Positions 1-64,000 of a stretch of DNA of 64,000 nucleotides are shown one piece after another. The stretch's first letter is position 1; each line of letters opens with the position of its first letter. Position numbers and translations under genes: made by a program. Under the pieces are notes generated by a model that was not told where the DNA came from, did no database searches, and saw only the letters and a list, made by a program, of their open reading frames with translations. Origin of the DNA: Deuterostichococcus epilithicus (lineage: Eukaryota > Chlorophyta > Trebouxiophyceae > Prasiolales > Stichococcaceae); NCBI GenBank assembly GCA_033439295.1, contig JAVTLE010000018.1, forward strand, positions 930,001 to 994,000, written 5' to 3'.

Positions 1-324
1 TGCACCTGTGGTCACTGGCTCGACTTCCGATGCGATACATGTGTTGGGGTATGTATGTGATGGCTGATGCGTTTGCTGCCGGCCCCTCATGCCGAAGGCT
101 GACGAGGTTGCACCCCTTGCCGCAGCCCCCCGCGTCAGTGGCAAGCAGTGCTGGCTCGCCATGCTTCCCCGCTCCGCAGTCCGATCCGCCCGGCCTGCCG
201 GGTCATGCACCCTGCACCACAAGGCGGCTCGTTCTCCAGACATCGGAGGACTCCTCCTGGCCAAATGTTGGAGGCAGACACTGACAGGGGGCTGTGCCGC
301 TGAACCCTGAACCCTGCGCCACAG

Positions 325-2738
325 GGTGCGCAGCATGCAGGGCCACCGCGCACGGGTGGGCTGCATGGCATGGAGCAGCCATCTGCTGTCGACAGGCAGC
401 CGCGACAAGACCATCCTGCAGCGCGACGTGCGCGCGCCCGAGGACTGGACCAGCCGCCTCGCGGCGCACCGCTCGGAGGTGGGGCCAAATAATATTTCAA
501 TGTTGGCCCACCCTGGAGCGGCAGGGCCAGTCATGTGTTGCAGTCTCTGTCGCTTGCAGGCATGCTTTGTGTATGGGCCACCATGGCAACGCTTCCACCT
601 GCCTGCTTCTGGGCACCTTGCGGCCAACATCGCACGTTCAAATGGCGCAGACAGCATGCTATTGTCTGTGCCGTGCTCACCCCGCCCAATGTGCGCGCTC
701 CCTGCGCGCAGGTGTGTGGCCTGAAGTGGGCGCCGGACGACCGGCAGCTGGCGAGCGGCGGCAACGACAACCAGCTCTACTGCTGGTCCTCCACATCCAG
801 CCAGCCCGTGCTGCGCTTTGATGACCACCAGGTGCATCGCTTGTCCGCAAGCTTCGCTAAGGAGACAAGCCAGAAGACAAAATCAACTAGTGCGCATCTT
901 GGTCGCTCCATTGTGTGCCCTCGCGGCGCTATGTGGGTTCGGAACCTCCTCGACAGTCGGTGCTGTGCTTCGATGACCATCAGGTGCGCCTTTGGATCAG
1001 GGTTGCGGAGTTTCTGCGAGCACAGACTTGTGCAATGTGACTACAGAGTCGCATGAATGTAACCATTGATGCTTGTTGGTGCTGCGTTTAGACGGCCGTC
1101 AGATGTCACCTGCCCCACCTGGCGTGCACCCATGCTGCAAATTTCGGCGTCATGTCTTTGCAGCATTGCCCAGCCAGCCTGGCGTGCCGCAATTTGCACG
1201 AAGCACTCGCACACTGATCCAGAGGGCTCGATGTGTTGAGGGCGATAGACTCTGATCAGAGTCTCTCGTTGAACAGCTATACTACCCCTGGGTCAGTCAC
1301 CTCTAGGATGCCTTTCTTGACCAAGGCAAATCACTGCGCATCCCGCAGGGAATGAAAGCAGGGCTCGAGACTGGCATCACAGCGCAAGACCCTGATCTAC
1401 ACACACGTACACATCCGTCCAGCCCCCAATCAGTGCTCAGCCGCCGAGCAGGCTCGTGAAATCCCTGTAAAACGCAAGCACACCACCGCCCTGCACAGGC
1501 GGCGGTCAAGGCGATAGCGTGGAGCCCGCACCAGCACGGGCTGCTGGCCAGCGGCGGCGGCACCGCAGACCGCTGCATTCGCTTCTGGAACACCGCCTCA
1601 GGCGCCGCGCTCACTGCCATCGACACCGGGTCCCAGGTGCGCCGCTGCTGCCGCTGCTGCTGTTGCGGCAGCTGCTGACCTGCTGTGGCGGCAGTTGATT
1701 CTGAGATAGAGTGAATGGTGCTCATGGCAGATGCAGGCCAAGCAGGCGGCACATCTTGCCAAAGTCCTGCGGATGCTGCAGGCATGTTCCGTGAACCCTG
1801 CTCATGCGCACGTGATCACCGCTGCCCATGGCACAGGTGTGCAACCTGTCGTGGAGCCGCAATGTCAACGAGATCGTGTCGACGCACGGCTACAGCCAGA
1901 ATCAGGTGCGCTTTGGCGGCCGCCTCCCTGCAGCCTGGGTTGATGCGCGGCTACTGAAGCCAACCTCCCGGCACCCTGCCTCTCGCCATCGATGCCCATG
2001 GAACATTCCCACGCCTTGTGGACGCCTGCTGAGATGAGGCGAGGAAGCGGAAGCGCTGTCCTAGCGAAGGCAGCGCAACGCTGGCTGCGGCCCGGGCCTT
2101 GGGGGGCGTGCCCTCGAGGCCACCTTCGGTCGACTCCTGATCTCCACAGTCGTGCATGGGCGTGTGCTAGCGCCCCTGGGCCCCGTGCGTGCGCAGGTGT
2201 GCGTCTGGCGGTGGCCGGGGCTGGCCAAGCTGGCGACGCTCACAGGGCACACTATGCGGGTGCTGTACCTTGCGGTGTCGCCTGATGGCCAGACCATCGT
2301 CACCGGCGCCGGTGCGTCCCTTTCCGAACCCTGGAGACGGGACACCCGCTCATGAGGGATTGCCCCTGAGCGCGCCCTCGTGCGAGGCCTTGCAAATGGG
2401 CAAGATGGTGCCGCCTCCACCAGCGGCCCTGGCGCGTGCTTCCGTGCCCGCAGTTGCGGTTGCGGCAGGCAAGGAAGTATCTTTGCGGAGGTTGAAGGGA
2501 TGCCAAATGAGCCGCAGCAGCACTTTTGCAACGCGTTGGTCTGGCTGGGGTTCCATAGCCCCTGCATCCTGACACCAGCGCAGCAGCTGTGTTCCTGTGC
2601 TGTCACTCAGGGGCTAGTGCACCACGTGCAGGTGACGAGACGCTGCGCTTTTGGAGCGTCTTCCCGGGTGCCAAGGCGGCCGGCGCCGCAGCTGACGACT
2701 CCTCAGTGTCCTCGATGATGCGCGCCCACATCCGGTGA
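325..2738 (+). CDS. FZR1: Cdh1/FZR1 (CCS52-type) activator of the anaphase-promoting complex, 3' part
   Basis: WD40-repeat activator that recruits substrates to the APC/C ubiquitin ligase in late mitosis and G1. Exons: 325-478, 712-831, 1499-1636, 1837-1905, 2197-2311, 2632-2738; all junctions keep phase. Diagnostic stretches are [43 protein letters not shown] and [11 protein letters not shown], typical of the Cdc20/Cdh1 propeller. The read [15 protein letters not shown] favours Cdh1/CCS52 over Cdc20. The protein ends in Ile-Arg, the known IR tail that docks on the APC/C TPR subunits. The N-terminal part with the C-box and first propeller blades lies left of the window; bases 1-324 are intron. 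Family identity is established knowledge, the splice model is my inference from frame and borders. Confidence 0.93.
960..987 (+). repeat. Intronic echo of the preceding FZR1 exon end
   Basis: This 28-base stretch matches 808-835 at 25 of 28 positions, including the GTGC donor that closes the exon there. It lies about 150 bp downstream in the same intron and orientation. It would read VLCFDDHQ against VLRFDDHQ in the real exon. Confidence 0.8.
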
Positions 2739-3242
2739 CCCAACCAGGAGTGGCGCCCGGTGAACTTCTGCCGGCCCAGCGGCTAGCGGACCAGATGATA
2801 CAATGACACATCACGGGGGCAGCGCACAATGTGTTTCAGGAGGGCGAGGAAGCCGTGCTGTTGGAACATGAGGGACGATCTGGCAACAAGCGTCTGAAAG
2901 AGGGCGGAGGACATCAGTGGTTTCTATTGGCAAGCCAGGAACCAACGACGGTGTGTGAACCATCAAAGCATGCTTTTGACAGACAAGGAGGTTCTGTATG
3001 CTCTTCAACGCTTTCATGGAGTGCAGACCCTGTGCGCATGATGCAGGCAGTGTGCAGTCAACAAGATGCAAGGAGAGATGTCCGTACAAGGGCCCCCTCA
3101 TTAATGGCCGACTGCGATCAGCAATGGGATGCAGTGTGCTGAGAGTCTTCAGAAACGCTTACCGACGATCCGAGCGTGCGCCTGACAGAGTAACAGGTCC
3201 GCGGACCCGCTTCCTCCGTGCTTTGAAACCGCTTTAGCAGCC
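2739..3242. other. Intergenic: FZR1 3' flank and GH5 promoter side
   Basis: Between two genes on the same strand. I see no convincing coding exon, RNA gene or repeat. It should hold the FZR1 3' UTR and the promoter and 5' UTR of the cellulase gene. Confidence 0.5.
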
Positions 3243-6200
3243 ATGCAAGCCTCAGCTATCCTCATCGCCGGCCTGGCGCTGCTGGCGACGGCCAGCGCCG
3301 GTCGCGACCTGGTCACCTCGCGCGGCCTGTTGCAGATGACCGGCATCGAGTCGTTGGCCGACGCCGTCGCGCAACAGCCCACCGTGCCCCAGATGGTGAT
3401 TCCTCAAGCCAATCAAAGCCTGTTGCACTGCCACAGGCGGCCATTTCGGTCGTTGCACCGAGCTCCAGTGTTGAATAATGTCCCACTCCGGTCAACCCTG
3501 GTGCAGCTCCTCGACTGCCGCTTATGCTGGCCAAAAAGGCTCGCACATGAGAGATTGAGAAGATGCAAGAATTTCGCGGAGTCCAGGATCGAAGACGCAT
3601 CGACTGTGACTCAGTCACCGATCCGGTCAGCGCGGGAGTTCATGCACCCGCTAGGGCCACTTTAGCGTCATGCGCAACGGCAGCATAAACTGCAGAATCC
3701 AAATTGCATCGATCACCTCATTTGCACGTCGTGCCTGCGCGCGCGCCTGCTGCGCGGGTGTCGCTGACCGGCCGTCTGGTACAATTATCACCGATCGACG
3801 GACATCCGCTCGCATTCGGCCGCTCCGACCGATTGCGTCTTGATCAGTCAGCATTGTAACCAGCCTTCAAGTCTTGACCAGACCGGACTGTCATTCTCAG
3901 ACACTTGTGCACGGCGCAATGAGCTTGCAGCTTGCAGTCACGAGTCGAGTCACCTCAGGTCCAGGCTGCTGCTACCTCATTGACTTCCAGATGGCGCAGA
4001 CCCACATTTCATACAGCCTTCAGTCTGCTGCCAGGTCTTCGAGCATGATTGTGCGACCTGGCTGCAGGTGGGTTTCGGCGACGTGGACCGCGCCATCCCG
4101 AACACTGCCACGGTCGGCGGCATCGCGGAATCGTCCACGGACCCGCAGCCGCAGTGCGAGGCCAACATCGCGGCGGAGCTCACGCCCGCTGGCGGCTCCA
4201 GCTACTCTGCCAAGCTCACCTTCTACCTCAAGAACTGGTGCGCATTGATGGACCCAGCAACACGAAGCTGTCTGGCCATCCTTCCTTTGTGGTGGCTGAC
4301 ACCTCCAGCACCGGCTGCCCGGCACAGCTGGGACAGCTGGTGCTTTCCAAACGAGCTCGGCCGAGGCGAGCTACGCAAAGCAGCATTGGACGCGTCATGC
4401 GGCATTGCGTCTGGCTGCAACCGCAGGCCTCGTGTGCCTCTCAGAAGCTCCCGTGTGGTCACCCTCGAGTGACCCCAAGTCCCTGCTGTCGTTACGCAGG
4501 GCCCCGGAGGTCACTCCATGCCAGTGCCGTGGACGATCACCTTTACAACTCAGTAACAATTTCAGTGGCAGGCCCCTGCGTTTGACGCCCTTCAACTGAC
4601 TGAGGCTTCCTCGCTGCTGCGCAGGGCAGCGGAGGTGATCCCAGTGCCGTGGACCGTCCACCTGTACAACCCGGTGTACCTGCTGGTGACTGACGCCGAG
4701 GCCGTGGCCATCACGTCGCCGCCCAAGGTCGTGTCCGGCTACATCGATGGTGCGCATGCGGTCGATGGTCTCGTTCCTGGCGTTCCTGACTGTACTAAGG
4801 TGCATTGCAGCCGGCTGCATGGTGCAAATTCTACCTGAGCATCAACCACAACATGTATGCTTGCGCGGCCGGTCACCATACAACGATCTACTCTGCGATG
4901 GTGCCGACGCCCTGGCCTGCCACGAAGACAAGCTTCCACATGCTGGCTTGTCCCTGAGCCTTCCTCTGGCCTTGCTGCGCTGTGCGCGGACACGGCTCAG
5001 TCAGTGCAGCCTCTGGGCAAATCCCATGACTGTCAAACTTACAAACGGCGTCTGAGACCTTGCAACCCTGCTGCTGGTACAGCGATGGGCGCAGACATGG
5101 CCCAGGCGGTGCAGCCGCTGGGCAACAACACGGTGCAGTTCAGCGTCAGCGTCGTCGTGTCCTCCGGCAATGGCCTGCCGCGCACCGTCTTCATCAACTA
5201 CACTCCCTGCTCCCTGGTGCGCTTCTTTGTTCCTGAGCATGTCATCAAGTGTTCGTCGAGATCATCAACGTATTCCAACTGCACACCAGACTGCGCTCCG
5301 TTTTCCAGTCGGCTGTTAGCACAGTTTAAGGCGGTTGTCCTGGCGGCGTGCTCCCAATGCTCTGTATCACGTTTTCATGCCAGGTTGGGCCTCGAGTGCT
5401 GCTGCAGCGCCATCTTCTCGCCCTGCATGTCCTGCCTCCAGAAGAGTGAGAAATTCTCGGGGATTTCTCAAAGCCAGTGGGCGGGCTCAAAACCCGACGA
5501 GTCTGTTGGCACCCCACAGGTGACTGTGTCAGGCACCGGCAGCACGCAAAATTCGGCGCCGCCAGCGCCGCCAAGCCCCCCCTCCCCGCCGCCGGCCAGC
5601 CCCTCCCCGCCTCCGCCGCCCAGCCCGCCGCCGGCTCCCATCTCCGGCGAGATGGCGACCCAGACGGAGTCCGTTGCCGCTGTCGGCTTCGCCTTCGCCA
5701 CACCGCCACCCATCCGCCAGAACGTCGCCATCAAGGGTGCAGCTCTTGGAATGATGTTATATCTCTGTTGATTGGTGCTTCCGCCTTTCGACATTGCTGC
5801 ATCGCATCCAGCAGGACAGGAGCTTGCGGGTTTGGCAGCCTTTCCGTTTTCGAAGCGGGCGCATCCAATGGTGTTGGTCGTGTTGAAAGCTGGGCGCATG
5901 CGGCTTGCTGCTGGAAGCCAGGCCTGTGCAGCTTGCATGGCCGCTCAAGAGCCAGACCTGTACGATTGCACGACTGCAGGTCAGCAGTTCATCGGCGTGG
6001 ACGGCCGCCCCGTGCAGCTCAGGGGCATCAACTGGTTCGGCTTCGAGGTGCGCTTGTTGCCTTGCTTTGCTCAATGTTAGGGTTTAGCCCTAGCACTCGA
6101 GCCCGCCCGCCGCAGCCTGACCCAGAAACTGAAGGGTTGCAGGACGGCTCGACGACAAGCCTGCGCACAGTGTGAAGACTTCGTCCTTCTGCGTGCCGCC

Positions 6201-9200
6201 TTGCACCGCGCAATCCCAGGGAGGGATCATCACAGAAGGCCTCTGCCTGTGCAATGGCCCATCTGCGACTGGCCTGCAGCACATGAGCACGGCGCAATCC
6301 GGCATCTGGTATGGCGCTGACATGTTGCAATCGAACGCTCACCAGCTGAGGCGATGGCTTCTCGTCGCTGCTGCTGCAGGACATGAACACTGCGCCGGAC
6401 GGCATCTGGTTCGGCCCCGACACGCTGACGCGCGATGTCGTCACCATCGCCAAGCGCATCAAGGTGAGCACCGGCTGGCCCCCTCCCCCACACCCCCACC
6501 CCCCTGCCCACCGCCACTGGCAGCACGACCCAGTTTTGGTCGAAAATCAGTGAAAATGGACCGTGCCGCTCCGTGTTCCTGCGCTGTGAGACCGTGACTG
6601 CGCCGCAGTGGTCCTGCGGTAACCCTAAAGCCGCCGATGATACACTGCCTTCTTACGCTTGCAAATCTGGAACGTTGCTGCTACTCCTCATGTCGTGTTC
6701 CAGGCGATTTGACGTTGTTCTGCTGCCCGGTCCCTTCCACGCAGGCACTCGGTTTCAATGCCATCCGCATGCCCTTCAGCATGACCGACCTGTGGGGCCT
6801 GAAGCCCCGCATCTTCAACTGGGACTGTGCCGCCGTGACGCCGCAGGCCTTCCTCAAGTCTGTGACAGACCCTGCGGTGCCATACCCATCAAGTGCGCAG
6901 CCCTCAGCCCTAAACTCCTCCGCCTTGGGGCCCCCTTCCTGGTCGTCTTGAACAACCCAAACCCGCTGAAGTGCTTGGGAGTGTTGCAGTTCTGCCATCA
7001 TTGCTTGTGACTGCGGATTGGTCGCAAGCTGGTGCACTTTGCGCTCTAATGCCGCAGGCTGTCAGCCGCATGCGCAGCAGTCGCTCTCATCCTGCATCTT
7101 GATGTGCATTACGTCTTGACCGAGCCTCTGCGAGCATGCACACCGCCACCGCCCCATGGAGCATTGCAATCGCCTCTCCGAGAACGCTGAGCTATTGCTG
7201 CTGCGCAGATGTTGCCGCCAACTGCAGCCTGCCGCACGATTGTGCTTCGGGTTCGGGACCTTCCTGCTCACCAACCTCAGCTGGGTTCTAGGTTATTGAG
7301 TTATGAGATTGCGACTGCCGTCCCGCAGACATCGCCATCAACTACAGCCTGCCGTACGAGGTGAAGAGCACGACCAACTCGTGCGATGACTACCTTCCCA
7401 CCGACAGCGTCTTCAACCGCTTCATTTGGACCATCGGCTTCCTTGCCCGCAACGGCTTCTATGTCCTCATTGACAACCGTGCGCTCTCTCCGAGTCGACC
7501 TGATGCCGATTCAGAATGTCTGGCGCAGCCCGTTTTGGACTGCGTGTGCTCCTGCGGCATGATGCTGGCATGGCGCCTAGGGCCTCATGCCCTGTGCACA
7601 GCTGGCGTGGCTTTTCGGTGCTTTCTGGATGGCACTGTCTGTCACTGCTACCGCCAACCGGCGCTGAGCCGTTTGGTGTGTGCTGCGTGCAGACTTGCAA
7701 TTCGATACCACTGTCTACGATAACAACGCCAACTGGCTGCTGGTGCGCACGCCTCCCTGTACTGGGTAGTTTCCTAATGCTGCATGTAGACTGCGGCTCT
7801 ACCCACTAGCGCGCACACTGCCGACGCTCAGCTTTATAGGCTGACGCTACTACCGGGGTCCTGCGCCGCCTCTCGAAGCCTCGGCTGCGACTTCACTCTG
7901 CGCAGCCGGCCACGCCAAATATGATGCAACATGCAAACCGGCAGCATCACCCCCTTAGTCGTCATAACTGGCCGCCGATGCTCCATGCCAACAAATCCCT
8001 ACAACAACTTTTCTATACCAAACCCCGCAGGGCTGGAATCGCATCATGTCCACCATCGCCCTGGACCCTGTGGCCAAGGCCTACACGATGTACGACATCC
8101 TGAATGAGCCGGACTGCCGCGGCATCGGCTGGGAGGGCGGCGGCTCAGGGCGGTCCATGACCAACAACTACCTCGCCATTATGGACCAGGCACGCGCTTT
8201 GCTGCGCTGCACTGACGCGCTGCTCTGTAAACAAGCATACGTTCATCATCAAGCATATGGCTCAGGGTGATTTATGGCCGACACTGCCTGGCCGGCATGG
8301 ACAGGGCATGTTGCCCTTCAGGTTTGGACCAGGCTCATAACAAACATCAAGGCGCAGCAGTATGATCCCGTCATTGACTGCCCAGCCGACCCTGTAAAGG
8401 AAAGGGCAAGCACATCCCCGAGTGATAACTGCGCTCGAGCTGCAGAGCTGCAGAGCTGCTTAGTCGACGCCTTGGTGCGTCTGCTGGCACAATTCGTTTT
8501 CTGAACCCAGCACAGGCACCATGGCGGCTCCTGTTTCAGGTCCGTGCTGCAGCAATGGGCATGCCATACATGCTATTCGTGTAGCTAAAATCAGCGGTGC
8601 TGCCATGCTCACATAGGGCTACAAGATTAACCCGGAGGCGATCTACTTCGTGGAGGGCGCCGGGCAGGGCGGCACTGGCGCCAACTGGGGCGACGGCTTC
8701 TCAACGGCTGCCGCCGTCATCAACCCCGGCGGCGCCTCCGACCCCACCCGCTTCTTCAAAACCCTGCTCACCAAGCCCTACAGGCACGGCCCTTGCTGCC
8801 ATGCTTCTGGTGCCAAGCCTTGCCTCGGGGCCCATGCCCGCCGCCGCCTGCGCTTGCGGCTTGTCTTTGGGGCGCCTGCCAATATGAATCCTAGGCTGCG
8901 TGTTACAGGACCCAGTTCTCAAGCCTCATTTTCAGTGCACAGTCTGCGTTTGAGCGCAGTGGGTCACTCGATTCGGCCGGGTCACTCAATGCGCATGAGG
9001 GTGGGGCTCGCCGCAGGACCACCGCAGTCTGCAATGCTCTGGCTGAGCACGATGTTAGTTGTCCGCAGGGCCCAGGTTGTCATCTCGCCGCACATCTACC
9101 CGCCAACCATCACGCACGCGACAACAGGCTTCTCGGGCGCGTCGCTGTACAACCGTCTGTCCGTTGCTCACGGCTACCTCACCAAACAGGTGACAACTTG

Positions 9201-11718
9201 ATCCATGTACATCCATGTACATCCATCCATCCATCCATCCATCCATCCATCCATCCTTTCATCCATCCCAGCCGCTCCTCTGAGAGTGCCCTGGCTGAGC
9301 AACTGTCGGCCTGTCCAAACACGTCTGCCCGTCACTTACGGCTGCCCACCAAGCAGAGGCGAGCGCCGTCCCGGGCTGACCAGTCGGCAACTTTGCAGTG
9401 CATGAACCTGTGGCTCTATTCGTGGTGCTGCCTTGACGGCAAGTTATCACACACAGCAGCCTCTTGAGGCGCCGCCACCGCGCTGCCGCTGTGCTTGGTG
9501 TCAAAGACGTTTCAACCTTCCTCTCTCTGTTCTCGTTGACGGTCCTGCGCATCAGAGGCGCCTCAAATTGACGATCCTGTTCCTCGCTGCTTGCTTGCAG
9601 GGCTTCTGCAACGGCGCAGACTGTCAGACGTTCATCGTTGTGCCCGGCGAGTTCGGCACCCGCATGATCGACCCCAATGACATTACGGTGCGCTTGCTGG
9701 GATTTGCCCCCTTCTGCTCCGGAGAGTCCGCAGCTCTCCGGTATCGTTTCAGAAAGCTGCAAGGACGCCATCGACAGACTATTTGGACGGCCCTCTCTGC
9801 TGCTGAACGCGGCTGCCTCCGACGCTGCGACGCTGCGATGCTGCGGCTCTGCTTTCTGTCCTGCGGCAGTAAGAGCACGTGTTGTTGCGATGACCTTCTG
9901 AGGTTTTGCAGGTTGATCTTCCCTTCCAGTTTCCCAACGACATGGACTCCCATGTTCCAATCAATACTCCGTATGGCAATCACATTGATATGTTGATTCT
10001 GATTATGTCTCTTTACAGTTCCTCAACGACCTGGCGAAGTACATGCTGCAGCCGGGCAGCGCCACCGATTCGCTGCATTCCACCGTCACCTCCTGGTTCT
10101 GGTGGTGCTGGAACGCCAACAGTGCTGACACCGGCGGCCTGGTGCACTTTTCAATGGGCACATTCCGGTTCGAAACACCACAGAAAATTCACTTAGTGGG
10201 TCACTGAGTGATCACCTCCTGATCACGTGGGGCTGGTGGGGCTGAAGTGCTAACAGCGACACCGACGGCCTGGTGCGCCTTTTTAAGGTGTTGTGCATGC
10301 ACATCACCTGGTTCTGGTGGGGCTGGAGCGCCGACAGCGCTGGCACCACCTGCCTGGTGCACCCTTTTCCGCACCTCCGAAGTGCACGACAAGACTTAGC
10401 AGCCACCGAGGTTGTTGTTGCCTGTGTGGTTCCTGTGAGGGGTCCGCGTTGTTTATTGGTTTGGTAATGTCTTCGTCGGCAGCAGTGCCGCCTCCCCACT
10501 TCTCCCCCCTCTCATGAGGGTCTCCTGCCGTCGGCTGGCGATCGCCGCCCACCAGCCGGCGCGCTTACACCCTTCCTGGCGGGCGACGATTGGCTGACCT
10601 CCCGGTGGCCCAAGGTGGACGCCTCGAGGAACCACTGCTGCCCATTGACTATTGACCGCCTCTCTCGCGAGACCGTGCCGCTGACCGCCTGCAGGTGGGC
10701 GACGACTGGCTGACCATTCAGTGGCCCAAGGTGAACTACATGAAGACCATTGGCCTGGTGCCCTGGTACCAGCCGCTGTCCAACGACCGCAGCGGCGGCG
10801 TCGCCACCGCCGCGCCCACCGCCGCTCCGACGCCAAAGCCGACGCTGAGGCCAACGCCCGCGCCGACGCCCCGGATCACCCCAGGTGCTGATGCAGACAC
10901 GGTCTGGCTTGGCCCGCTCTTGATCCGGAGCCAACGGTGGAGTGCACCGGGTTGCAAGCGGCCAGCGCCCCTGCACAGCCCCTGATCGACCGGCTTGCTT
11001 TGGGTCGGGTAGGGACTGGGCTGCCCACGAGCGCACACATTCTGCAATCGAAGTGGCACAGTGCAACTGCAGCTTGTCATTCCTGCAGGCTGCGTGCGCT
11101 GCGCGGCTGACTCGATTCGACTGCCACATCTGACTCTTAGAAATGATTGTGGCGCCATTTGACCGCATGCAGCCCCAGTCGCCACTCCCAAGCCCACCGC
11201 CAAGCCGGTCGCCGCGGCGCCCAAGCCCACGAGTAAGCCGACCGCCACGAAGCCCACAGCCAAGCCAACCACAAAGCCCACAGCCAAGCCGACCAAGAAG
11301 CCCACAGCGAAGAAGATGGCTGCGGCGACGGCAGCACCGTCCACTGTCGCATCGCCTGGCGCCGCCGGCGCCGGCACCCTCGGTCCCTGGGAGCAGTGTG
11401 GTGGCAAGACAGGGCCCAACGCCAACCCGCCGCCAGCGCTGGGCGACTTTGCGTGGGCCGACCAGGGCGGCGATGCCTGCCTCGCTGGCGAAACCTGCTC
11501 GCGCCAGGTGCGCCCCCACGAAGCCACCAAAATATTTTTTGTCCACAAACGACCTAAGTGTGCTGCAGTGTTGCTGTTCATGGCTGCGCACTGGTTGTAG
11601 CTGTGTGGGCTGCTTTGTGCCAGGGTTTTTGCCTTTGTCTCGTACGGCAGTGTTGATGCTTTGTCTGTCCGTGCCAATGCAGAACGAGTGGTACTGGCAG
11701 TGCCTGCCTGCGGCTTGA
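3243..11718 (+). CDS. Secreted modular GH5 endoglucanase with C-terminal CBM1-like domain
   Basis: Predicted 834-residue beta-1,4-glucanase. Exons: 3243-3395, 4068-4237, 4625-4749, 5095-5216, 5520-5736, 5980-6047, 6380-6463, 6745-6892, 7329-7478, 7693-7742, 8031-8189, 8617-8783, 9069-9189, 9601-9687, 10019-10141, 10695-10884, 11173-11507, 11683-11718 (2505 nt). Residues 1-19 form a signal peptide. Residues about 52-190 are an extra module with [19 protein letters not shown], resembling cellulose-binding beta-sandwiches but not assigned. A proline/serine linker (about 203-235) precedes the GH5 barrel (about 263-680). The acid/base Glu is E455 in ILNEPD, the nucleophile E595 in VVPGEFG. A Pro-Thr-Lys linker leads to residues 782-832: [26 protein letters not shown], with four Cys and three Trp, as in fungal CBM1, but with a longer first loop. 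Introns after 8189 and 8783 begin with GC. Role: cell-wall remodelling or external cellulose use (inference). Confidence 0.9.
4495..4555 (+). repeat. Intronic echo of GH5 exon 3 start
   Basis: Resembles 4618-4678, including the acceptor and the start of exon 3 (shared core CCAGTGCCGTGGAC). The copy sits just upstream of the real exon and picks up a stop (CAGTAACAAT), so it cannot serve as a full exon. Confidence 0.75.
4984..5040 (+). repeat. Intronic echo of GH5 exon 4 start
   Basis: Resembles 5090-5142 (GCGCAGACATGGCCCAGG...). Shared blocks are GTGCAGCC and CTGGGCAA. It lies about 105 bp upstream of the true acceptor. Confidence 0.7.
6274..6324 (+). repeat. Intronic echo of GH5 exon 7 start
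   Basis: Resembles 6374-6424: CTGCAG, ACATGA, CGGCATCTGGT and GCTGACA blocks line up with the acceptor and first codons of exon 7, exactly about 100 bp upstream. Confidence 0.75.
7204..7243 (+). repeat. Intronic echo of GH5 exon 9 start
   Basis: Matches 7324-7364 closely (CGCAGA, GCCATCAACTAC versus GCCGCCAACTGC, CAGCCTGCCG). Includes the acceptor AG; distance about 120 bp. Confidence 0.75.
9205..9270 (+). repeat. CATC tetranucleotide microsatellite
   Basis: Run of ATCC/CATC units inside a GH5 intron, starting right after the exon that ends at 9189. Two longer ATCCATGTAC units lead into the pure repeat. Confidence 0.95.
10209..10378 (+). repeat. Two successive intronic echoes of GH5 exon 15 end
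   Basis: Exon 15 ends within 10085-10151 (TCCTGGTTCTGGTGGTGC). Copies lie at about 10209-10284 and 10301-10378. The second still reads [17 protein letters not shown] against [17 protein letters not shown]. Spacing is about 125 and then 92 bp, all in the same orientation. Confidence 0.85.
10577..10620 (+). repeat. Intronic echo of GH5 exon 16 start
   Basis: Resembles 10691-10736: GGGCGACGA, TGGCTGACC and TGGCCCAAGGTG blocks are shared. Distance about 115 bp upstream of the real exon. Confidence 0.8.
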
Positions 11719-32514: not shown

Positions 32515-32554
<40 letters not shown>

Positions 32555-45577: not shown

Positions 45578-45580
45578 AGA

Positions 45581-47852: not shown

Positions 47853-50800
47853 ATGTCTCGCTGCCAGCGGGCAGCGGGCATCGCACGCCTGTGCGCTCGG
47901 GTGCACACCGATGCCTCCGCCGCCGCCGGCGGCGCACACGCAGCGGCGCTGCAGCCGGGGCTGCCGACGCAGCAGCGGTGGTCGGTGCTGCCCACGCTGT
48001 CGGGCTGGTATACGGGTACACGGGAGCTGGGAAGCGGCGCAGATGCCACAAGAGAAGGGTCGCCATGCCAGCAGCATGGCAGCGCCGCCGCTGGCAGCCG
48101 CGCGCTGCTTTTCAGCAGCCTCAGTGCCCCGAACCTGCAGATGGCAGCCGGGAGGCATGCCATACAGCAGGTAGGTCAGTTGGTGCACGCTTAGACCTTT
48201 CACTCGTTATTAATCCTGGTACTGCATCCACGTCCTTGCTGCCTATGCAGAGCCGACGTCGGCGCCGACGCCGGCGTGCTGAACCACTGCTGCTCCCTCG
48301 TACTGCAGGCCACTGGCGGCATGCCTGGCGCAGCCGCGGCTTGGCGTTCGCTCGCCACAGACGCACAGCAACCGCCGCAGCCTGCCCAGCCGCAGCCGCA
48401 GCTGCAGCTGCAGCCGCGTGGCAACCAGCAGGAGCAGCTGGGCTCTGCGGCGCCAGACGCTGCAGCCGGTGATGCCAAGGTCACGAGCGGCGCCAGGCCT
48501 CCGCTGCAGACCCTCGAGGCGAAAGGTGAGATTGGGAGTGCTTCCCACCCGAGCGGCGCTGCGGTGGCGCCTTGCGCATATACAATAATCGGTCTAGGTG
48601 ACTCGCGTGGCGCATTTGCAGCCCGTGTATCAGAGCACACAGTGAACGAGAGCAGGGTGCAAAGGCTGCTCTGTTGGCGGCAAAGTGCAGGGCTTGTCCT
48701 CCGTTCAAACGTTGTAGCTGTGACTTCACATCTGGCAGACCGGCGATGCCAAGTCCGCCCACGAGATGCGCAAACGGTCATGCACCAGGCAGCTATTGGA
48801 TGCATCTTCGATTTGTAATGCTGGTGTTCGTTCTGAAGGCGAGGCGATGCCGAGCCGGTCAGCTGTTGGATGCATCTTCGGTTTGTGATGCTGGTTCTCG
48901 TTCTGAAGGCGAGGCGATGCCGGACCGGGAGATCCTGGGCACTCTGTTTGACTACCTGTGGAACAAGGAGCACGGCTTCCGGCGCCGCATCGGCCTCGCG
49001 ATGGGCCTGCTCATTGTAAGCAAGGGCATGAACATCACGGTGAGCCGGTGCCATCTGCCCTGCGCTGGGCCTTGCGATGGGCCCGTGCATCGTCAGCAAG
49101 GGCATGAGCACCCCGATGAGCGCGAGAGCACACTGCTGGCTAGCCGCCTGCCGGCGGCGGCGCAGCAGGGGGCTTGCGAGCCAGCAGTTGCCAGAGGTAG
49201 GCAGCTGCCGCTTCGCAAGCAGGCTCACCCCTACCCTGACGGCGCCGCAGCTGAAGCCGTGTCCGCACGACTGGACGCATGTGTATCCCACAGCGTGCTG
49301 CATTACTGCCTGTCGCACAAGGTGCTCACTCGCACCTTATGCGGCAAATACAGCCCTCGCCAACCGAGCCACATCTTGTCACTGCTCTTTTGACTGCTCA
49401 TGGGATCCAGGACCCTCTTCGATTTCCCTTGCGCAGGTGCCGTTCATGTTCAAATATGCAATCGACGGCCTGACGCTGGACACCAGCGGCGCGACGGCTG
49501 TGGGGCCCTACCTGGCGCTGACGCCGGCGGCCCTGATCGCGATGTATGGCGCCGCGCGCGCCGGCTCCGCGCTGTGCAACGAGCTCCGCAATGCCACCTT
49601 CGCCAAGGTGGGAGGCGCCGCTGCCTGCCCCACCACTGCATGCTTCGGCTTTGGCAGTGATGGTGGGCGGCAGCAGATGGGGACCCTGCTCCCCGGATTT
49701 TGGGGTTCAGGATTTCCCCATTACACACGCCTGGCACCCTGTCCTGCGTCCGCACAAGCAGGGGACGTCGGATGTCAACTCCATCGCCGTGCCGCATTCT
49801 GGCACTCGTGCCCCAAGTCGATGCTGACGCCCCCGCCGACCTGCTCGCTCGTGCGCGTGCAGGTGACGCAGAACACCATACGCCGGGTGGCCAACACGAC
49901 CTTCGAGCACCTGCACAACCAGGACCTGGCCTTCCACCTGTCGCGCCAGACGGGCACGCTGTCGCGCGTCATCGACCGCGGCACCCGCGGTGCGCCGCTC
50001 GTGCCACACCCACTTCCGGTTTACCTGCCCACTGCCCTGCACTCACCACAGCTGTGCTGGTGGCGCACTGCTGCAACGGAACAACCACCCCGAGACATGC
50101 GCAGCCTGTACATCCAGCAGACAGTCCTGGAGGGCGACCGCACCCCAGTCTCCAAATCCCACAGCTCCCTCGGCTGAATACCCCCACACGCCGGCGCTCG
50201 CACCAGGCACCCTCGTCGCTGCCTTTGCTGCGCAGGCATCAACTTCATACTGAGCAGCATGGTGTTCAACGTGGTCCCCACGGCGCTGGAGGTGTCCCTC
50301 GTGGCCGGCATCCTGGCATGGAAGTGCGGCCCGGCGCTGGCGGGCCTCACCGCAGCCACGCTGGTCGCCTACATCGCCTTCACCTTCGCTGTGACCCAGG
50401 CAAGGACCCTCGGCCGCTGTCCGTAGCGTCTGCCGCGTGTTCCTGCTGAAAGTGATAAGATCATCACAACGCTGCTGCTGCAGCGGCACACCAGGCACCG
50501 GGCGCGCACATGGACCTTCAATGCGCTGTCTGACTGCTTCCCGCTTCCGCTGCCGCAGTGGCGCACCAAGTACCGAGTGCGAATGAACAAGGCGGACTCG
50601 GAGGGCGGCTCTCGCGTCATCGACAGCCTGCTCAACTACGAGACCGTCAAGTACTTTGGCAACCAGGGCCACGAGCAGGCCCGCTACGACTCCTGCCTCG
50701 AGCGTGCGCCCCCTGCCCGCTCAAACCCTCCCGACTGCTGGTCTTGCTGCTTTCCCTACCCTGGACCTGCACCACTGCTTTTTGACGGGACGGGCAGCGC

Positions 50801-53800
50801 TGGCAGAGCCACCGCTGGGCAGAGAGACACACCGTCGCGGGGCGCTCAGGTCAAGGCAGCTCCCTGTTGCCGCCAGCACCAGGAGCCGGCCCGCCGGAGC
50901 CTACCGCGGACAGCCCGAGTCTGCTGTTCCATCAGCGCAACCGCCACGGCCACGACCCGCCATCCGGAGGCGCCTCTGTTTGAGATCTCCGCCTGGTGCC
51001 CCGCGCCTCTCCTGTGCACAGGGTACGACGGCACAGCGCTGAAGACGCAGCACAGCTCGACCGCCTCAGGTTGATGTCACCCCGCTTGGAACAGGCAAAA
51101 TCAAGTCACTCCACCTGCTTTTCAGGGTACGAGGCCGCGGCGCTGAAGACGCAGTACAGCCTTAGTGCCCTGAACTTCGGGCAGAACCTCATCTTCAGCG
51201 GCGCGCTGGCGGGCGCGATGCTGCTCACCGCGGACGGCATCGCCGCCGGGCAACTCACCGTCGGCGACCTCGTCATGGTCAATGGCCTGCTGTTCCAGGT
51301 GCCCGGCCTGCCTCCGTCCCGGTCAGGCTGTTCAATTTTGGTGCCACTGCGGCGGGCCGGCTGGCAGCCTCGTCATGGGACCTGGTCGTGCTGTGTGGCA
51401 TGCTGTCCCGCCGGGGGACTCCTCAGCCTGCCCTGGTGCAGTGTTCGAACTTTTGTGGTCCTGTCCTGTCGCCTTCGGCAGCTGACATCAGCACAGCTGC
51501 CAGCGCGCACACAGACGTCCATGCAACGAGCACACACTTCGCAGGCTGCGAGCAGCTTACACCTCCAAATGCTCACATCTCATGGCTGAATCAGCCTTCC
51601 CTCTGAAACAACGCGCAGCTGTCGATGCCGCTCAACTTCCTGGGCACGGTGTACCGGGAGACGAAGCAGAGCCTCATCGACATGGGCGCCATGTTTGCGC
51701 TGCTGCGGGAGGGCTCCGATGTAAAGGTATGTGAAACCGTTTGGAATCATCTGCAACTGCCAAGCACGCCTACTCTCACCCAGCTACCCAGCCACCCATC
51801 TCCCCTCTGCACGACCCTGCTGCACCTGCATGCATGTGGGCGCCGTCAGGCACGACTCCGTTATGATGATTATTATTGACCTATCATGCAAGGCCGTGCG
51901 GCATCGTCGGCGTCCGGAACATGTGTCGGGGGTGCAGCGTCCCGCACCCGTACCTGTGTGGAGCCATCTGCATCCCCTGCGGAAGCCCAGCCTGCGGCAC
52001 GCCGCCGCCGCCACCTCACCAGAACGACCTGTCCCCTCCGTGCTGCCCACTGTTTTAGTGGGTCTCATGTGCGCCGCTCAACTGCCTCAACACCGTTCCA
52101 CCACAGGACAAGGCGGGCGCTGTGGAGCTGCAGCCGGCGCCCGCCGGCCACGACATCGAGTTCCGGGACGTGGCATTTGGCTACCGCGACGGCGCGCCGC
52201 CCATCCTGGATGGCGTCTCTTTCACCGTGCCCGCCGGCACGTCGTGCGCCTTCGTCGGCACCAGCGGCAGCGGCAAGTCGACACTGCTCAGGTATGTTGT
52301 AGGCTTGGTACGTAACACAAACCTTTCATCCTGTGCCCGCCGGCACGTTGTGCGCCTGTGTCGGCACCAGCGGCAGCGGCAACTCGTGATTACACAGGTG
52401 CATGCGTGGGGTGTCCCTTCCTTTTTGGCTCGGCGGCACCTCCTGCACATTAGTGGGCACAGCAGCAGCAGCATATCGACACTGCCTCAGGCGCGCCTGC
52501 TTGGGCTCTCCTTGCTTCTCTACTGCCTTTGCCTTCCACCCTTTGCCAAACCTTTGCAAATCCACAAAGCCTAACCCCCTTCGACCAGAGCGCCACACGT
52601 GTAAACCTCCGCTTGGACAACGCAGGCTGCTGTTCCGGTTCTACGACGCCAACGGCGGCAGCGTGCGGGTGGGCGGCCGCGACGTGCGCGACATCACCAT
52701 GGCGTCCCTGCGCGGCGCCATTGCCCAAGTTCCCCAGGCGCGGAGAACTGCCCGGTCGATTCCGACTGACACGTTTCCGGCAGGGCTTCATGTGCTTTCC
52801 CTGCCTCCTCTGATGCCCTCAGACAGGCTGCGGCGCTCGTACGATCTCTCTGCTGACTGGTGCCTGCACGACCGCGCCTGCGCCTGAGACACGAGGGCCG
52901 GCACCGTGAGGCCCTGCATCCTGTTGCCAACAGGACATGGTGCTGTTCAACGACACCATCCGGTACAACATCGAGTACGGTCGCCTGGGCGCCGGCGAGG
53001 CGGCCGTGCATGCCGCCGCCCGCCAGGTATTTGTCTCTCCCCACCCGCCAAACACTCCACTCCTCAAAACTTTCCATCCTTCGCTCGTGATGGATGCAGG
53101 CACTGCAAGCAACTGACGCTTGCATCATCCGCTGCCTCGTCCATGTGCTGTTGGCTCTGTATACTGCACTATGCGGACCAGGACTTGCATCAAGTTGCAA
53201 TTTTGACCCCTCGATCAATGGCCGCGAGGCAGGCCTTGAGGGCTATTGCGGTGCCCCTTTTGCAGCGCCCAGCCGCCTGCGGCATGTCTTTTAACAACCG
53301 TTTGCGGCATGTACCCTCAAACTTGTGCCTCGAATCTCTGCCTCCAAACTCTGCGCAGGCGGCGGTGCACGATGCCATCATAGCGATGCCGGACGGCTAC
53401 GACACCATCGTCGGCGAGCGCGGCCTCAAGCTCAGCGGCGGCGAGAAGCAGCGCGTGGCCATCGCCCGCGCCTTCCTCAAGGCGCGCATTGAAAACCATA
53501 ATTTTGAGAAAAGCAGTTTCACTTTAGATCAATCACACGGCGGGCTCGCCGCTGTGCAGCACATGCCTGCGCTGGCCGGACGGCAGCCTGCAGCGCTGTC
53601 CAGCCACTGCCGGAATGCCTGACGGACAGGAAGTTCACAATCCTGACGTGGAAACCTGCGCACCTGGTGACCGAGTAGGCCCGAGAGACACCCTCCACGC
53701 TTCACGATGAGGCAACCCGCGCATTCGATGCCCGCACAAGTTCCTAAATGCCTGTGCCATGTTTGCGAGTAGTGCCCCTTGACGCACACATTAACCGTTA

Positions 53801-55903: not shown

Positions 55904-58900
55904 TTAGACGATGTCGTCGCGGGAGGTGGAGTTGTCCAGGTCCGCTGTGCCGTATGTCGCCGCCGAGCCGCCCTGCAGAGGGTGGACGGGCGTGAAGGGT
56001 GAGAGACGGCACGGGAACCCGCAAGGCAGGCGTTGCAAAATCAACGGAAACTGACGATGCCGTTCTGCAGGTGCTGGCGATGTGCAGGAGGCAGCCCTCC
56101 CGACAAGCGGACAACAAATGACAAGCACTAGCAGACAGGGGCCCACAGTCAAGCGACGCAAGGCCTGCGGAGCACGGCGCCGGCGCGACATCGCAGAAGC
56201 TGTCACGGGACTGTGCATGGAAAAAAGGTTTTCCTGATCATTCTATTTATTAGGAACGCACCGAGTCCATCTCGTCGGAGGCAGGCAGGCGCGCGAAGGG
56301 GCCGGTTGCGGGGCGCGGGATCGGCGCAAAGGTTGCGCTGGTCGCCACGCTGGCCGCCGACGAGCGCGTCGCCTCCAGCTTGGCCTTGATCTCGAACATC
56401 ACGCTCTGGGCGGCGGCAGTGTGGGAAGTCAGGGACTAATTGCTTCATGTTGGGGTCGGGGTCAAGCGGAAAGGAGGTTCGCCTCCAGTTTGGCCTTATC
56501 TACAGCAGCTCGCTCGGAGGGCAGCGGCGGCCATGAGGCATTGATATGATGAGAGGGAGGAGTTCGAGTGGGAGTTGTGAGAGCAGGAGGGAGCACGTCT
56601 GCCCTGGTCTGCCCACTCTCTATAGTGCCCCTCGCCATGGCCAACCAAGCAGTGGAGAGCATGGCAGCAGCACTGCTCTGAAGAGACTTGGGAATCGTTA
56701 TTTTGGCATCCAAAATGAAGTACGAGTGCTGCGCGGTGCAGATACTGATCGAGAAACTGAACTGAGTGATGGCAACCCCGAGTCTCCAGGAGCACAAGAC
56801 ACAGGGCTATTCGGTACCATGGCGACGCTGATTTGCTGCTGAGATCCGGCTTCCCAGCTCTGCATGAGGTGCACCACGGCAGCAGCATGCCCAGTGTGCC
56901 ATGCGCACACAGCCATCACTTTGCCAGGTGCAGCCAAGCCCCCTCCCAGACGATCACACGACGGGAAGTTGAGTGTCCTCGTGACAGCCGCCTGGAGCAA
57001 GCGACTGCGGGGAAGGGTGCGGGCACGCACCTTGAGCTGCGGCTTCTCTCGCTCCTCCATAGGCGTCTTGCCCGGGTCCGCAGTCAGCGTCTCGGCGCTG
57101 TCGTCCAGCGTCATGGTCATGATGTCCGCGGTCACGTCCTGCAGCGTCAGCGGCATGGCAGCATGTCACGCCGGAGCGGCTCCGGTGCGCAGCATGGCGT
57201 CTGCACTCTGTCGCCGCTTGACCCCCGCCGGCCTACCCAGCAGCCGCCCCTGCCGCACCGTCTCAAAGCGGCTCACGCGCAACAGCGACGCCAGACTGCA
57301 GCCCGAGGCGTGTGCGCCGCGCCCCTCCCTGGCGGCGACCAGACCGGAGGACGCGCCATGCAGCACTATGCATACAGCCCAAAGCGGGCGGGCGGGAGGG
57401 AGGCATGCCTAAATCATGATTAAGCGAACCCAGAGGCCCAAACCCTGGCAACGTACCGTGTCCTCGTCGATAGCATCCAACTCGGATGAGGCGTCTAGCA
57501 TCGCGCGGACCTCCTCCGGCTCCTCCCATGCCGGCTCGGAGCGGTACAGCAGCCTGCGGGCGGCGGCAACAAGAGTTAGGGGATACAGCAGGGACCGGCT
57601 CGGAGCAGTACAGCAGCCTGCGGACGGCGGCAACAAGGCTGTGGGGATGCAAGAGAGGGGATACAACAGGGATGTGGCACCAAGGGCAGCAAACTCCAAA
57701 CCGCCGGCTGCGACAATGACGCGCCAATGCTTGTGCAATTCCTGTGGGGCAACCCCTTACGTGTCCGTCACGACATCAGGGTGTAACAGATTACACAAAA
57801 GCGTGCCGAATGCGCTGTGACCTGCCAAGCGGCAGGGAGTTGGACCACAGCGGTTCGAACCTAGAAGACTTACCGGCAGGCCTCCTTGGCGGAGGGGCGC
57901 CCGCTGACGTCGCGCTGGGTGCACGCGGCGATGAGGTCGGCCACGTCCTGCGGGCAGTCGTCGGGCACCACTGGGTCGCGCATGCCGCCGCGCTGCGGCA
58001 CCTCCTGCGGGGGGCAGTCCGTACACACAGCGGTCATGTGGAGGCGAAGGAGGTTTATCGTTCACTCAAATTTTGTTGTTGAAAGGAGGACGCGTGGGCT
58101 GCTGTCGCAGGCTGCTGGCTGGGCGATGGGGTCAGCGCCATGGCAGCCTGCTGGCAAGAGCTGATGAGCCAAAAAAAAGTCCCCATTCGTTGAGCAGCAC
58201 GGCCCCGGTGACAGCTCGAGAACCTTTGCTGAAGCTGCCAGCTTTGTGCGGGGCCACCGGGTGGGGTGCAGTGCCTAGCGAGCCACGCAAGCCGCCGGCA
58301 GCCAGCTGCCGCACCTGTGTCACGATCTCCCACAAGACCACGCCCAGGCTGTAGATGTCCACCTTCTCTGTGCACCTGCACCGCGGATGGGGGCATGAGG
58401 TTCATGGGACATGGGGCAGAAGTTGGGTTCTGGCAAGGAGGCCACGACCTGAGGCAGGAAAGGACAGTTGGCATGCTCTGGGTTGGACACATTGCTCGAG
58501 CCTGCGAGCCTACCCCTGGCAGCACCAACAAGCAGGGCACGTCCGCATCGCAGTGCGAAAACAGAGGACTGAGTCCGGCATCAGAAGCTGACTTACCAGC
58601 TCGGCGCGGTCCGGGCCATGGCGGCACAACCTCACACGACTCTTGCAGACATGAAAGACCCGAAGGGCGAGTCCGACAGCGGTCGGAGGATGCTCACTTC
58701 TCGCCGAGCAGCAGCTCGGGCGCGGCCCAGGCCATGGTGCCCAGCGCGCCGTCGCGCGTGAGGTAGCCGTCAGTCATGATCTTGGCCATGCCCACGTCGC
58801 CGATCTTGGCCACACCGTCCTGCGCAGCAGATGATGGCGCCGCGGTGTGATGCACTTGGTGACGCTGTGCAGTGGCGTGCACATGTGTCGCCGGCAGTGC

Positions 58901-61582: not shown

Positions 61583-62352
61583 TGTCAGTACTAAAAGACC
61601 TGGCCGAAGTCCGGGGCCAGTACGGCTACTGTCTCTCTCCGCGCAGCGCCGTGTTTGATGCTACTGCCTGCTCGACGGCCCTGCAACGTGCACCTCGCTG
61701 AGAGGTTGATCAGGCGCCAAGCTCACAAGGCCACAAGCACGTTGTGTGTCCTGTGCAGAGCGGGGGCAGGGGCTGCAAGCCGTGTGCTCTGCCGCTTCTG
61801 TGCGATGGTGATTGTGACGGGAGCCTGCGCTGAGGGTGCACGGCAGGGTGTGCTTTGCTGACGGTCTGACGCTGTACGCCACATTTGGCTTCGCTGGCGA
61901 CAACCATCATCAAATTTCCTTCAATTCGGCCACGTTGGCAGTGGTCCTTTTGCCAAATCGTGACTAAGGATGGTGGTGTCAATACGGATCTGCCAACAAC
62001 TTCAAATCTGATTTATTCACATTGAAGTTCGACCCTTCTCGGTGCTGCAAGTCCCATATAAACAATACAACTCTTCACTCCGCAACTGAGGAGCTCAATA
62101 CCTAACGAAATCATGAGCTCTCTCTGACCACTTCCCCCAAGACGACCGCACACCCGCTAACACAAACGAATATGGACAAAGGATGTCAAGACGAGGCACT
62201 GGCGGCGGGAGCAGGACACAGCGGCGTGGTGGATGTGCGCGGCAGTCTTCTTCCAGCACAGGCACTGCATCACTTGAGTCCCCCAAGCCGCCGCCTGGGT
62301 CACACCATACGGTGCGCCACTGCCTTGGCCCGCTGCTGCAGACCGTCCATGC
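61583..62352. other. Intergenic between kinase and zeaxanthin epoxidase-like gene
   Basis: Same-strand spacer of about 770 bp. Lower GC around 61900-62150. Should contain the kinase promoter and the 3' UTR of the right-hand gene. No exon supported. Confidence 0.45.
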
Positions 62353-64000
62353 TCACGCAGCAACGGGCTCCTTCTCCTCAATCGCAGACGCCCGCCAGCT
62401 GCGCTCAAGGCGGTCGCGCTCCGAGCGGTGGTACATCCTGCGGACGCAAGCAAGCACTGTCGGCAACAGGTGCAGCGACACCTGCTGAGGCAGCGGCGCT
62501 CCGCATCCAGGATGGCGCCAGCAGCGTCATCGCGCGGGTGACGTCTGCCCTTCAGGTGGAGGCTGGCACCCGGGGGCAGCGGCATGCGAACTGTTGACAG
62601 GGGAAGTGCGGCGCAGTGCAGCAAACCGCTGCAGAGACGGACACAGGAAGGGAGGGAGGCCAGGGGGCGTGGGCGGCTTCCTGAGGCGAGGTGCTTACTT
62701 GATCTTGTACTGGAGGCCAGTGCCCGGCTCCCCAAACTCCAGCACGTCCCCGGGGCGCAGCCGCTGCCGGCTGCTTGGCGCCATCTTCTTCTCGTTCAGC
62801 CACGTGCCGGTGGACGAGCCCAGGTCGCGCACGTAGTGGTGGCCGTCCTCCTTGATGAACTCTGCGTGCTGGTCTGACGCCTGCAGTTTGGGGTTTAGGG
62901 TTAGGCTTTGCAGTGTATGGTGACCACAATCGCTTTGTCAGATCAGGAGTGAGCACGGTTCCGACCCACATGCCCTGCCTCGCCCACTCGACCCTGCGCC
63001 TGGCAGCCACCGCACACTGCTGCGACGCGCTGCCGCTGCCGGCAGCCATGCGGCGACCTGACATGGACGCCTCGAATTCGTGGCCTCTCCCAGCTGTGTG
63101 CTGCCACCTGGGATGCATCGGGAGCAGCACACCCCGAGCTGCCGCTCGTTGCTGCCTGTGGCTGTGACTTTCGAAGTCCAACCGCACTTGAGGTGAATGG
63201 TGAAGCTGCGGGGTAGGGTCCTGCATCCGGCAGCACGCTGTATCGGGACACGGCCTGTCGGTGCTCTCGGAGAGAAGGCGCTTACCGAGGGCGCATCCAG
63301 AATGAGGTTGCAGCTCTCATCGCTGCCGATGGCGCAGCACTCGTCGTCGCAGATCATGACCGCCGGCTCCGTGGTGGGCTCCGTGCCGCCGCGGCCCTGC
63401 ACCAGCACGCCAGGGGTGGTTACAACAACACTACCTACAAAGAAGCCGCTGCTGAAACGCCGCAGCGATGGCTGACATCCTTTCAGCGCGCCGGGGAGCA
63501 TGCCACCCAACCAGCATGGAAAGCGAGGAACAACGAGGGTTGACACAGGTGGTGAGGCGCAGATGCGGTGCGGTGCAGGGTGGGTGACAGCGTATGGGGG
63601 TGCCACAAGGATGTGCAAGGGACGAGTTGCACCTGGTTCGTCAGGGGCACCACTGCCCACTGCGCGTTTGCCGCCCGCAGCAGCTCGGCGTCGTCCTTCA
63701 TGAACAGGTAAAAGTCCTGCGGGGCCCACAACCTCCTGTTGGACAAACTCGCCCCGCCAAAACGGGTACTTGCGTCGCCACGCCGCCGGCCCCTTCTGGG
63801 GTCTGCACTCGCGGGCGGGCGCCCGCGACAAGGCGCAACAGCATTTCAAACCGACGAGTGGCCGCTGCTCTGGCCGACGCACGCGGGGCTGTGTGCGGCG
63901 CCTGGAAGCACGTCATCCTGGGACGCGCGCACGCAGGCAGGAGGCCGGGCCCACCGACTCGTCGAAGGTCTTGGGCTTGTCCGGCAGCCGGCAGTGCGGC
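62353..64000 (-). CDS. Probable zeaxanthin epoxidase, C-terminal FHA part (5' end outside window)
   Basis: Exons, left to right: 62353-62437, 62699-62880, 63286-63396, 63633-63716, 63955 to beyond 64000; phases agree. The read CRLPDKPKTFDES joined to FYLFMKDDAELLRAANAQW and AVVPL lines up with the linker that joins the monooxygenase and FHA parts of zeaxanthin epoxidase (CRLSDK...DDDALE...GEW). The FHA core is visible: IGSDESCNLIL, ASDQHAEF (the S-x-x-H phosphopeptide-binding pair), DLGSSTGTWLN, LRPGDVLEFGE. The end is a charged tail, MYHRSERDRLERSW to EEKEPVAA. The enzyme epoxidises zeaxanthin to violaxanthin in plastids. The FAD part lies right of the window, so identity is moderate; another FHA protein is possible. 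Confidence 0.65.

Follow-up and report, generated by a model that had tools for sequence, protein, structure and literature searches.

Tandem duplications across exon edges as a probable source of intron growth in the green alga Deuterostichococcus epilithicus

The stretch of DNA analyzed here, called the window, comprises 64,000 nucleotides of the green alga Deuterostichococcus epilithicus (contig JAVTLE010000018.1, positions 930,001 to 994,000, i.e., C16:930001-994000 of a 46.8-Mb assembly in 21 contigs). Six of its genes, encoding FZR1, a GH5 protein, a phosphohexomutase, an F-box/LRR protein, an ABC transporter and a kinase, provided the 63 introns and 69 exons that were tested. In all six, introns carry same-orientation copies of the edge of a neighboring exon, as a preliminary description of this DNA had claimed, and far more often than expected by chance. 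From the analysis of these copies, tandem duplications of 60–215 bp straddling exon edges are quite probably a measurable source of intron growth in this alga. The contigs are large and the assembly is contiguous apart from 13 isolated single N in the window (e.g., 24581, 27495, 38933, and 54042), and the GC content, determined in loci sampled outside the window, is 62%.

Gene models of the ABC transporter, the phosphohexomutase and GH5 were obtained with a small spliced aligner and independent homologs. In the ABC transporter, four references agreed on ten internal exons, two more exons differed at one edge (one or two references), and the models of its 5′ part differed among references. Ten exons of the phosphohexomutase were the same from four references (P0121, P0122, P0124, and P0126), and ten exons of GH5 (5980–10141) from two (P0241 and P0242), the GH5 edges outside this range being different. 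Exons of FZR1 were identified by reading the sequence, and PDB 4ui9 served as a check (match E 7e-97). Kinase exons were read by frame, with a kinase-domain match in addition, and the exons and name of the F-box/LRR gene were assigned by eye from sequence alone, so that these two models are less well supported than the other four. After edge corrections, all 63 introns were GT-AG or GC-AG. The ABC gene had been described as ATM; its exon-edge copies stand, and its identity is that of a mitochondrial ABC transporter (homologs are named “ABC transporter B family member mitochondrial” and “ATM2”), not of the ATM kinase. Its best named protein matches come from green algae akin to Trebouxia, Apatococcus and Micractinium; the most similar sequence of all, which is not among these, has 79% identity.

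Introns were then compared with exons by Smith-Waterman alignment, at score thresholds of at least 32 and at least 28; the counts at 32 predate corrections of 1–3 nt at exon edges of FZR1 (seven) and of the kinase (one), and those at 28 postdate them. At a score of at least 32, on the sense strand, 20/126 own flanking exons matched against only 2/4107 other exons. At the same score no match was found with next-but-one exons (0/114) or with own flanking exons in antisense (0/126), and other exons in antisense gave 6/4107. With the threshold lowered to 28, 24 exon-edge copies were detected in 21 of the 63 introns, for a null built from exons of other genes with a mean of 1.09 and a maximum of 7 over 20,000 draws. 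They are distributed as seven in GH5, five in F-box/LRR, four each in the phosphohexomutase and ABC genes, three in the kinase and one in FZR1. One of them (a 20-nt match to the downstream exon in phosphohexomutase intron 9, lying 35 nt off the junction) is probably a chance match and is still counted. Self-comparison of the window by blastn at a score of 36 or more, which requires no annotation, gave the same signal, with 21 direct and no inverted repeats at offsets of 50–200 bp, and three direct and no inverted ones at 200–1200 bp. As offsets below 50 bp were apparently missed by this search (none was returned), a separate diagonal scan was run on the window and 20 other loci. Of the 72 direct repeats that it detected, 48 had an offset between 50 and 139 bp, 18 a shorter and 6 a longer one; in the window, its inverted and shuffled controls yielded no repeats.

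The presence of a copy was associated with a longer intron. Introns with a copy averaged 439 bp and those without one 294 bp (p 9e-7, 63 introns), and the former fell to 298 bp once the offsets were subtracted. In other words, a length excess of 144 bp (interval 90–200) became 4 bp (−45 to 53), and the slope of intron length on offset in the window was 0.99 (0.73–1.34). Insertion of the visible block alone would leave 71 bp (6–134) unaccounted for. In 47 other loci, using ab initio gene models and a score of 32 (15 copies in 14 of 241 introns), introns with and without a copy averaged 428 and 264 bp, the former becoming 277 bp after subtraction, with a slope of 0.77–0.78 and wide intervals (0.78, 0.35–2.04). 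The proposal that tandem duplication across the border lengthens introns is thus borne out by a length excess equal to the offset in the window and repeated in these loci. Altogether, the offsets of the 24 copies represent 2950 of the 21,575 intron bases of the six genes.

Both exon starts and exon ends are copied. Offsets range from 64 to 215 bp with a mean of 123, most often 100–130 bp, close to the 60–200 bp first reported. The aligned blocks average 41 nt per copy-bearing intron and stop no more than 5 nt from the junction in 17/24 cases and no more than 14 nt from it in 23/24, in line with the earlier remark that the copies usually include the splice junction. A junction-anchored list, also of 24, includes a second copy in GH5 intron 15 and omits the weak match of phosphohexomutase intron 9. 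In this list the splice dinucleotide is kept, by ungapped projection, at 13/24 copies (6/12 donors and 7/12 acceptors), which by our estimate is about what neutral decay would leave.

The two youngest pairs are the most informative. In ABC intron 1 (+), a 70-bp unit is duplicated in full, its two copies (48790–48859 and 48860–48929) abutting across the acceptor of the exon starting at 48909, with 90% identity over 69 nt that include exon and intron parts. In kinase intron 6 (−), a near-complete unit with an offset of 64 (57531–57587 and 57595–57651; 57 nt, 88%) spans the acceptor of the exon starting at 57553; its exon part matches at 22/23 and its intron part is similar too. Elsewhere in the ABC gene, the exon end 48992–49034 is copied at 49068–49110 in intron 2 (48992..49115; offset 76, 36/43), where GT has decayed to AT, and the exon start 51126–51160 at 51022–51056 in intron 6 (offset 104, 30/35, AG kept). 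The end of the exon preceding intron 9 (52219–52291), which we take to be the Walker A region, has copies at 52323–52399 and 52428–52491, the best block being 58/64 and the second copy 78.5% identical over 65 nt. The kinase also has an exon start at 56405–56369 copied upstream at 56514–56479 in intron 8 (offset 109, 30/37) and an exon end region at 58737–58712 copied at 58621–58597 in intron 4 (offset ~115, 23/26).

On the plus strand, GH5 shows upstream copies of exon starts in four introns of its first part: 4620–4670 at 4495–4549 in intron 2 (offset ~125, AG kept; exon from P0241/P0242), 5095–5125 at 4990–5020 in intron 3 (offset 105, 26/31; edge 5095 from P0242 alone, the other homolog giving 5106), 6381–6422 at 6281–6322 in intron 6 (offset 100, 32/42, AG kept) and 7324–7359 at 7204–7239 in intron 8 (offset 120, AG kept). 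In intron 13, the exon end 9145–9189 is copied at 9311–9356 (offset ~167, 37/47, GT lost); an ATCC tetranucleotide run (9201–9262) adjoins this duplication. Intron 15 (10092..10368) holds two copies of the exon end 10092–10141, at ~10233–10282 and ~10307–10356, both with GT, the farther one matching at 42/50; these two copies also match each other at an offset of 81. Such three-copy arrays, found here and in ABC intron 9, suggest repeated rounds of duplication. At the other end of intron 15, the exon start 10697–10736 is copied upstream at 10581–10620 (offset 116, 34/40).

In the phosphohexomutase (−), the exon end region 13268–13227, from P0121, P0122, P0124, and P0126, is copied at 13149–13108 in intron 10 (offset 119, 35/42), the exon end 13923–13890 at 13819–13786 in intron 9 (offset 104, 27/34, GT kept) and, weakly, the exon start 15312–15284 at 15434–15406 in intron 6 (offset 122, 23/29, score 28). 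Both ends of F-box/LRR intron 6 (+) are concerned, with the exon end 33487–33515 copied at 33570–33598 (offset 83, 25/29) and the exon start 34116–34151 upstream at 33907–33943 (offset 209, 30/37). The following introns of this gene contain copies of the exon start 34749–34776 at 34564–34592 (intron 7, offset 185, 25/29, AG kept), of the exon end 34851–34910 at 34973–35031 (intron 8, offset ~121, 49/62, GT kept) and of the exon end 35531–35572 at 35690–35731 (intron 9, offset 159, 31/42, weak with a score of 29). In FZR1 intron 2 (+), the exon end 802–831 is copied at 954–983 (offset 152, 25/30), reaching the junction with GT kept. A further exon-end copy occurs at 22851–22989 (22851/22963, offset 112), outside the six modeled genes, in a gene that looks SGNH-like by eye.

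Besides, the gene models revealed GC donors in 6 of the 63 introns (8190, 8784, 14638 on the minus strand, 50400, 52738, and 53482), the three of the ABC gene being the same in all four references. GC-AG introns make up about 1% in other eukaryotes, and the share observed here is high by comparison. The relatives of the GH5 gene (3243–11718) include cellulases of Chlamydiae-related metagenome genomes at 48–50% identity, a similarity suggesting that a gene passed from algae to Chlamydiae or the reverse.

The occurrence of these duplications elsewhere in the genome was assessed on 200 kb from 20 evenly placed loci and on 27 kinase loci. The window served to train the ab initio gene finder, which found 50 of the 63 introns with exact boundaries and made 53 in-span predictions there, 50 of them exact; gene models at the other loci are predictions. 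Self-blast of the 20 loci gave 30 direct and no inverted repeats at 50–150 bp, and one of each at 150–200 bp. A further 31 direct repeats lay at 300–800 bp, and those listed (up to 400 bp) lie in low-complexity stretches of loci L038 and L048. At a score of 32, own-flank matches amounted to 11/274 for 0.4 expected in the 20 loci and to 4/208 for 0.28 expected in the kinase loci. Copies are therefore about 4 to 8 times sparser than in the window, whose higher rate may be an artefact of how it was chosen. All but one of the 21 strong short-range repeats of the window touch an exon edge, the case in the SGNH-like gene included, and the remaining one (10222/10303) joins two intronic copies of a single array. 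A duplication process specific to exon borders was considered for this reason and rejected as the main reading, since tandem units also lie wholly within predicted introns (L039, offset 59, 91%; L045, offset 62) and within predicted exons of other loci, and since units confined to introns should fade sooner. Exon-internal duplications are illustrated by L042 1634–1778 (offset 72, 95%), L048 9612–9728 and L036 2993–3155. All seven listed, at five places, have an offset divisible by 3, as selection for the reading frame would leave, and some of these units are low-complexity coding repeats.

Several explanations of the copies have to be weighed against duplication across the border followed by decay. 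That they arise from chance, composition or an assembly artefact, with alleles placed in tandem, is hardly credible. The GC-rich sequence, the single N in the window and a chance rate of 0.8% at score 28 (33/4107 other exons) speak for it, whereas the exon, strand and distance controls do not yield the pattern, the divergence is presumably high for alleles, and the own-flank excess recurs in both further sets of loci of the same assembly. It is also very improbable, if slightly less so, that the copies are functional alternative or mutually exclusive exon edges. The 13 intact splice dinucleotides would suit such a role, as would the single stop among the differing codons of the aligned blocks. 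Against this, identity between exon and copy is flat across codon positions 1, 2, and 3 (85.2, 85.4, and 84.3%), with no third-position bias, 79 of the 104 differing codons are nonsynonymous and 25 synonymous, and indels of 1–2 nt interrupt 8 of the 24 alignments. Copies have also lost residues that do not vary among the homologs used, such as a lysine of an ABC pair kept by 10/10 of them. At 52 differing residues (15 of the 24 pairs, from GH5, the phosphohexomutase and ABC), the closest homolog has the residue of the exon 47 times, that of the copy once and neither of them four times. The copies are the derived side and are under no protein-level constraint, which, with the homologs siding with the exon, argues against functional duplicate exons. 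The expected decay of the redundant splice site is likewise seen, its dinucleotide being kept at little more than half of the copies.

A more serious challenge comes from the intron half of the duplicated unit. Only the two youngest window pairs, those of ABC intron 1 and kinase intron 6, have clearly similar intron halves. Similarity extends over the whole offset, or nearly so, in these two (48790–48929 and 57531–57651) and in L039, and not in most older pairs or in L041, L042, and L033. The following observations weigh against a simple duplication of a unit spanning the border. In the 22 older window pairs, intron-half identity is 32.3% for a null of 26.6% at positions 7–26, and 24.5% for a null of 24.9% at positions 27–46. 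An intron-side z-score above 2 is reached in just 2 of 36 pairs from the window and the other loci; F-box/LRR intron 9 and ABC intron 9 pass 2 in longer windows of comparison and not in shorter ones. A simulation in which duplicates decay neutrally and their ages span 0.08–0.5 substitutions per site was rejected, as intron halves would be far clearer, and the simulations fit only with most events old (~0.3–0.5 substitutions per site) and few recent. A planted edge-only control, inserting the block alone, gave slopes that averaged 0.34 and varied widely (−0.12 to 0.97). Finally, at L042, L041, and L033, outside the window, the exon side is near-identical over 19–32 nt and the intron side is at background, a pattern not expected had a single unit decayed uniformly.

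These last three loci would be explained by edge-limited copying without an intron part, or by exon-to-copy gene conversion of old tandem copies, with tracts ending at the junction where homology stops. The length test does not speak against conversion acting on an old tandem copy. On the other hand, pure edge-limited insertion adds only ~41 nt per intron and leaves the 71 bp noted above unexplained, the two youngest pairs include the intron part, and the intron-side similarity at positions 7–26 (0.323) exceeds that of edge-only simulations (upper limits 0.300–0.309). Overall, we regard this explanation as unlikely. A broader version, to which we give marginally more credit while still doubting it, takes the exon as a master copy whose intronic duplicates are repeatedly overwritten by conversion or freshly copied up to the junction, borders being hot spots of local templated copying. 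Regarding the age of the copies, simulation showed that local alignment selects high identity, an aligned identity of 0.84 corresponding to a true divergence of ~0.25–0.4. Because detection favors high aligned identity, the older pairs may well be at 0.3–0.5 substitutions per site, with intron halves beyond recognition. A candidate interpretation of the sharp drop in similarity at the junction, namely that old pairs are conserved above the neutral rate, is weakened by this alignment bias and survives only for a few high-identity pairs. The copies do range from near-identical to barely recognizable, as first described, the near-identical end being thin with two window pairs. The view of a continuing process is weakly supported, as most copies appear to be old and the simulations fit with few recent events.

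Under the reading that we favor, duplication across the border, small tandem duplications of ~60–215 bp, mostly 100–130, would arise at many sites of the genome. By analogy with other systems, they might start from a break or paired nicks, followed by fill-in and joining that duplicate ~60–200 bp. A unit covering an exon edge would produce two copies of this edge and two splice sites. Splicing would keep the outer, protein-preserving copy, the site backed by homology presumably being the one used in RNA, and the duplicated unit would become extra intron in which the spare exon edge and splice site decay without constraint. Duplications confined to introns are probably equally frequent and sooner faded, as they have no conserved exon for reference. 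Conversely, the conserved exon keeps a reference for the duplicated half, so that the genome holds a built-in record of duplications. Intron growth in compact genomes is poorly quantified, and here length can be accounted for. Many introns are exposed in this way to competing splice sites, making them a natural test bed for splice-site choice.

The suggestion that such duplications also create introns outright is not supported. The duplicated-AGGT model places a copy at the far end of the new intron, and none of the 24 copies abuts the far intron end, the nearest being 166 bp away. This model of intron gain by tandem genomic duplication is reportedly treated by Rogers in 1989, Gao and Lynch in 2009 and Hellsten et al. 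in 2011. In the accounts compared here, an exonic segment containing AGGT is duplicated and a new intron lies between the copies (PMC3443670, PMC4974935). Both cases involve a short intragenic tandem duplication, redundant splice signals and a preserved protein, but there a new intron is formed, whereas in the alga the copied segment is a border and an intron already present becomes longer. Among the matches listed from the open-access literature, as titles and abstract openings, no genome-wide account of border duplications lengthening introns was found. Regarding the origin of the units, breaks with 3′ overhangs are described as giving small tandem duplications via CST/Pol alpha-primase and end joining, and short tandem duplications as being, in the human genome, the commonest type of short insertion (<100 bp) (PMC8355091). 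These products are similarly short, sequence-independent and tandem; they come from induced breaks in mouse and human cells, the part of that account available makes no link to introns, and such a pathway in the alga is an analogy. Mutually exclusive tandem exon duplication (PMC9013439) also yields same-strand local exon copies, but whole exons are kept there for function, in contrast to the partial edges decaying unconstrained here. Introner elements (PMC9860276) are likewise a source of intron sequence active at many sites. Unlike them, as self-copying elements spread into many genes, the copies described here resemble their own neighboring exon and match exons of other genes at chance level, in a comparison of introns with exons only. 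The closest precedent found is the potato RdRp gene, in which a duplication crossing the boundary of intron 1 and exon 2 made a new intron (PMC4974935). As in the alga, the duplicated segment consists of the 3′ side of an intron and the 5′ side of an exon, and splice signals are inherited. The potato gene is a single case that gained a new intron, whereas the alga presents 24 copies of varied age in six genes and 15 elsewhere, with the upstream copy absorbed into the intron and the resulting length open to accounting.

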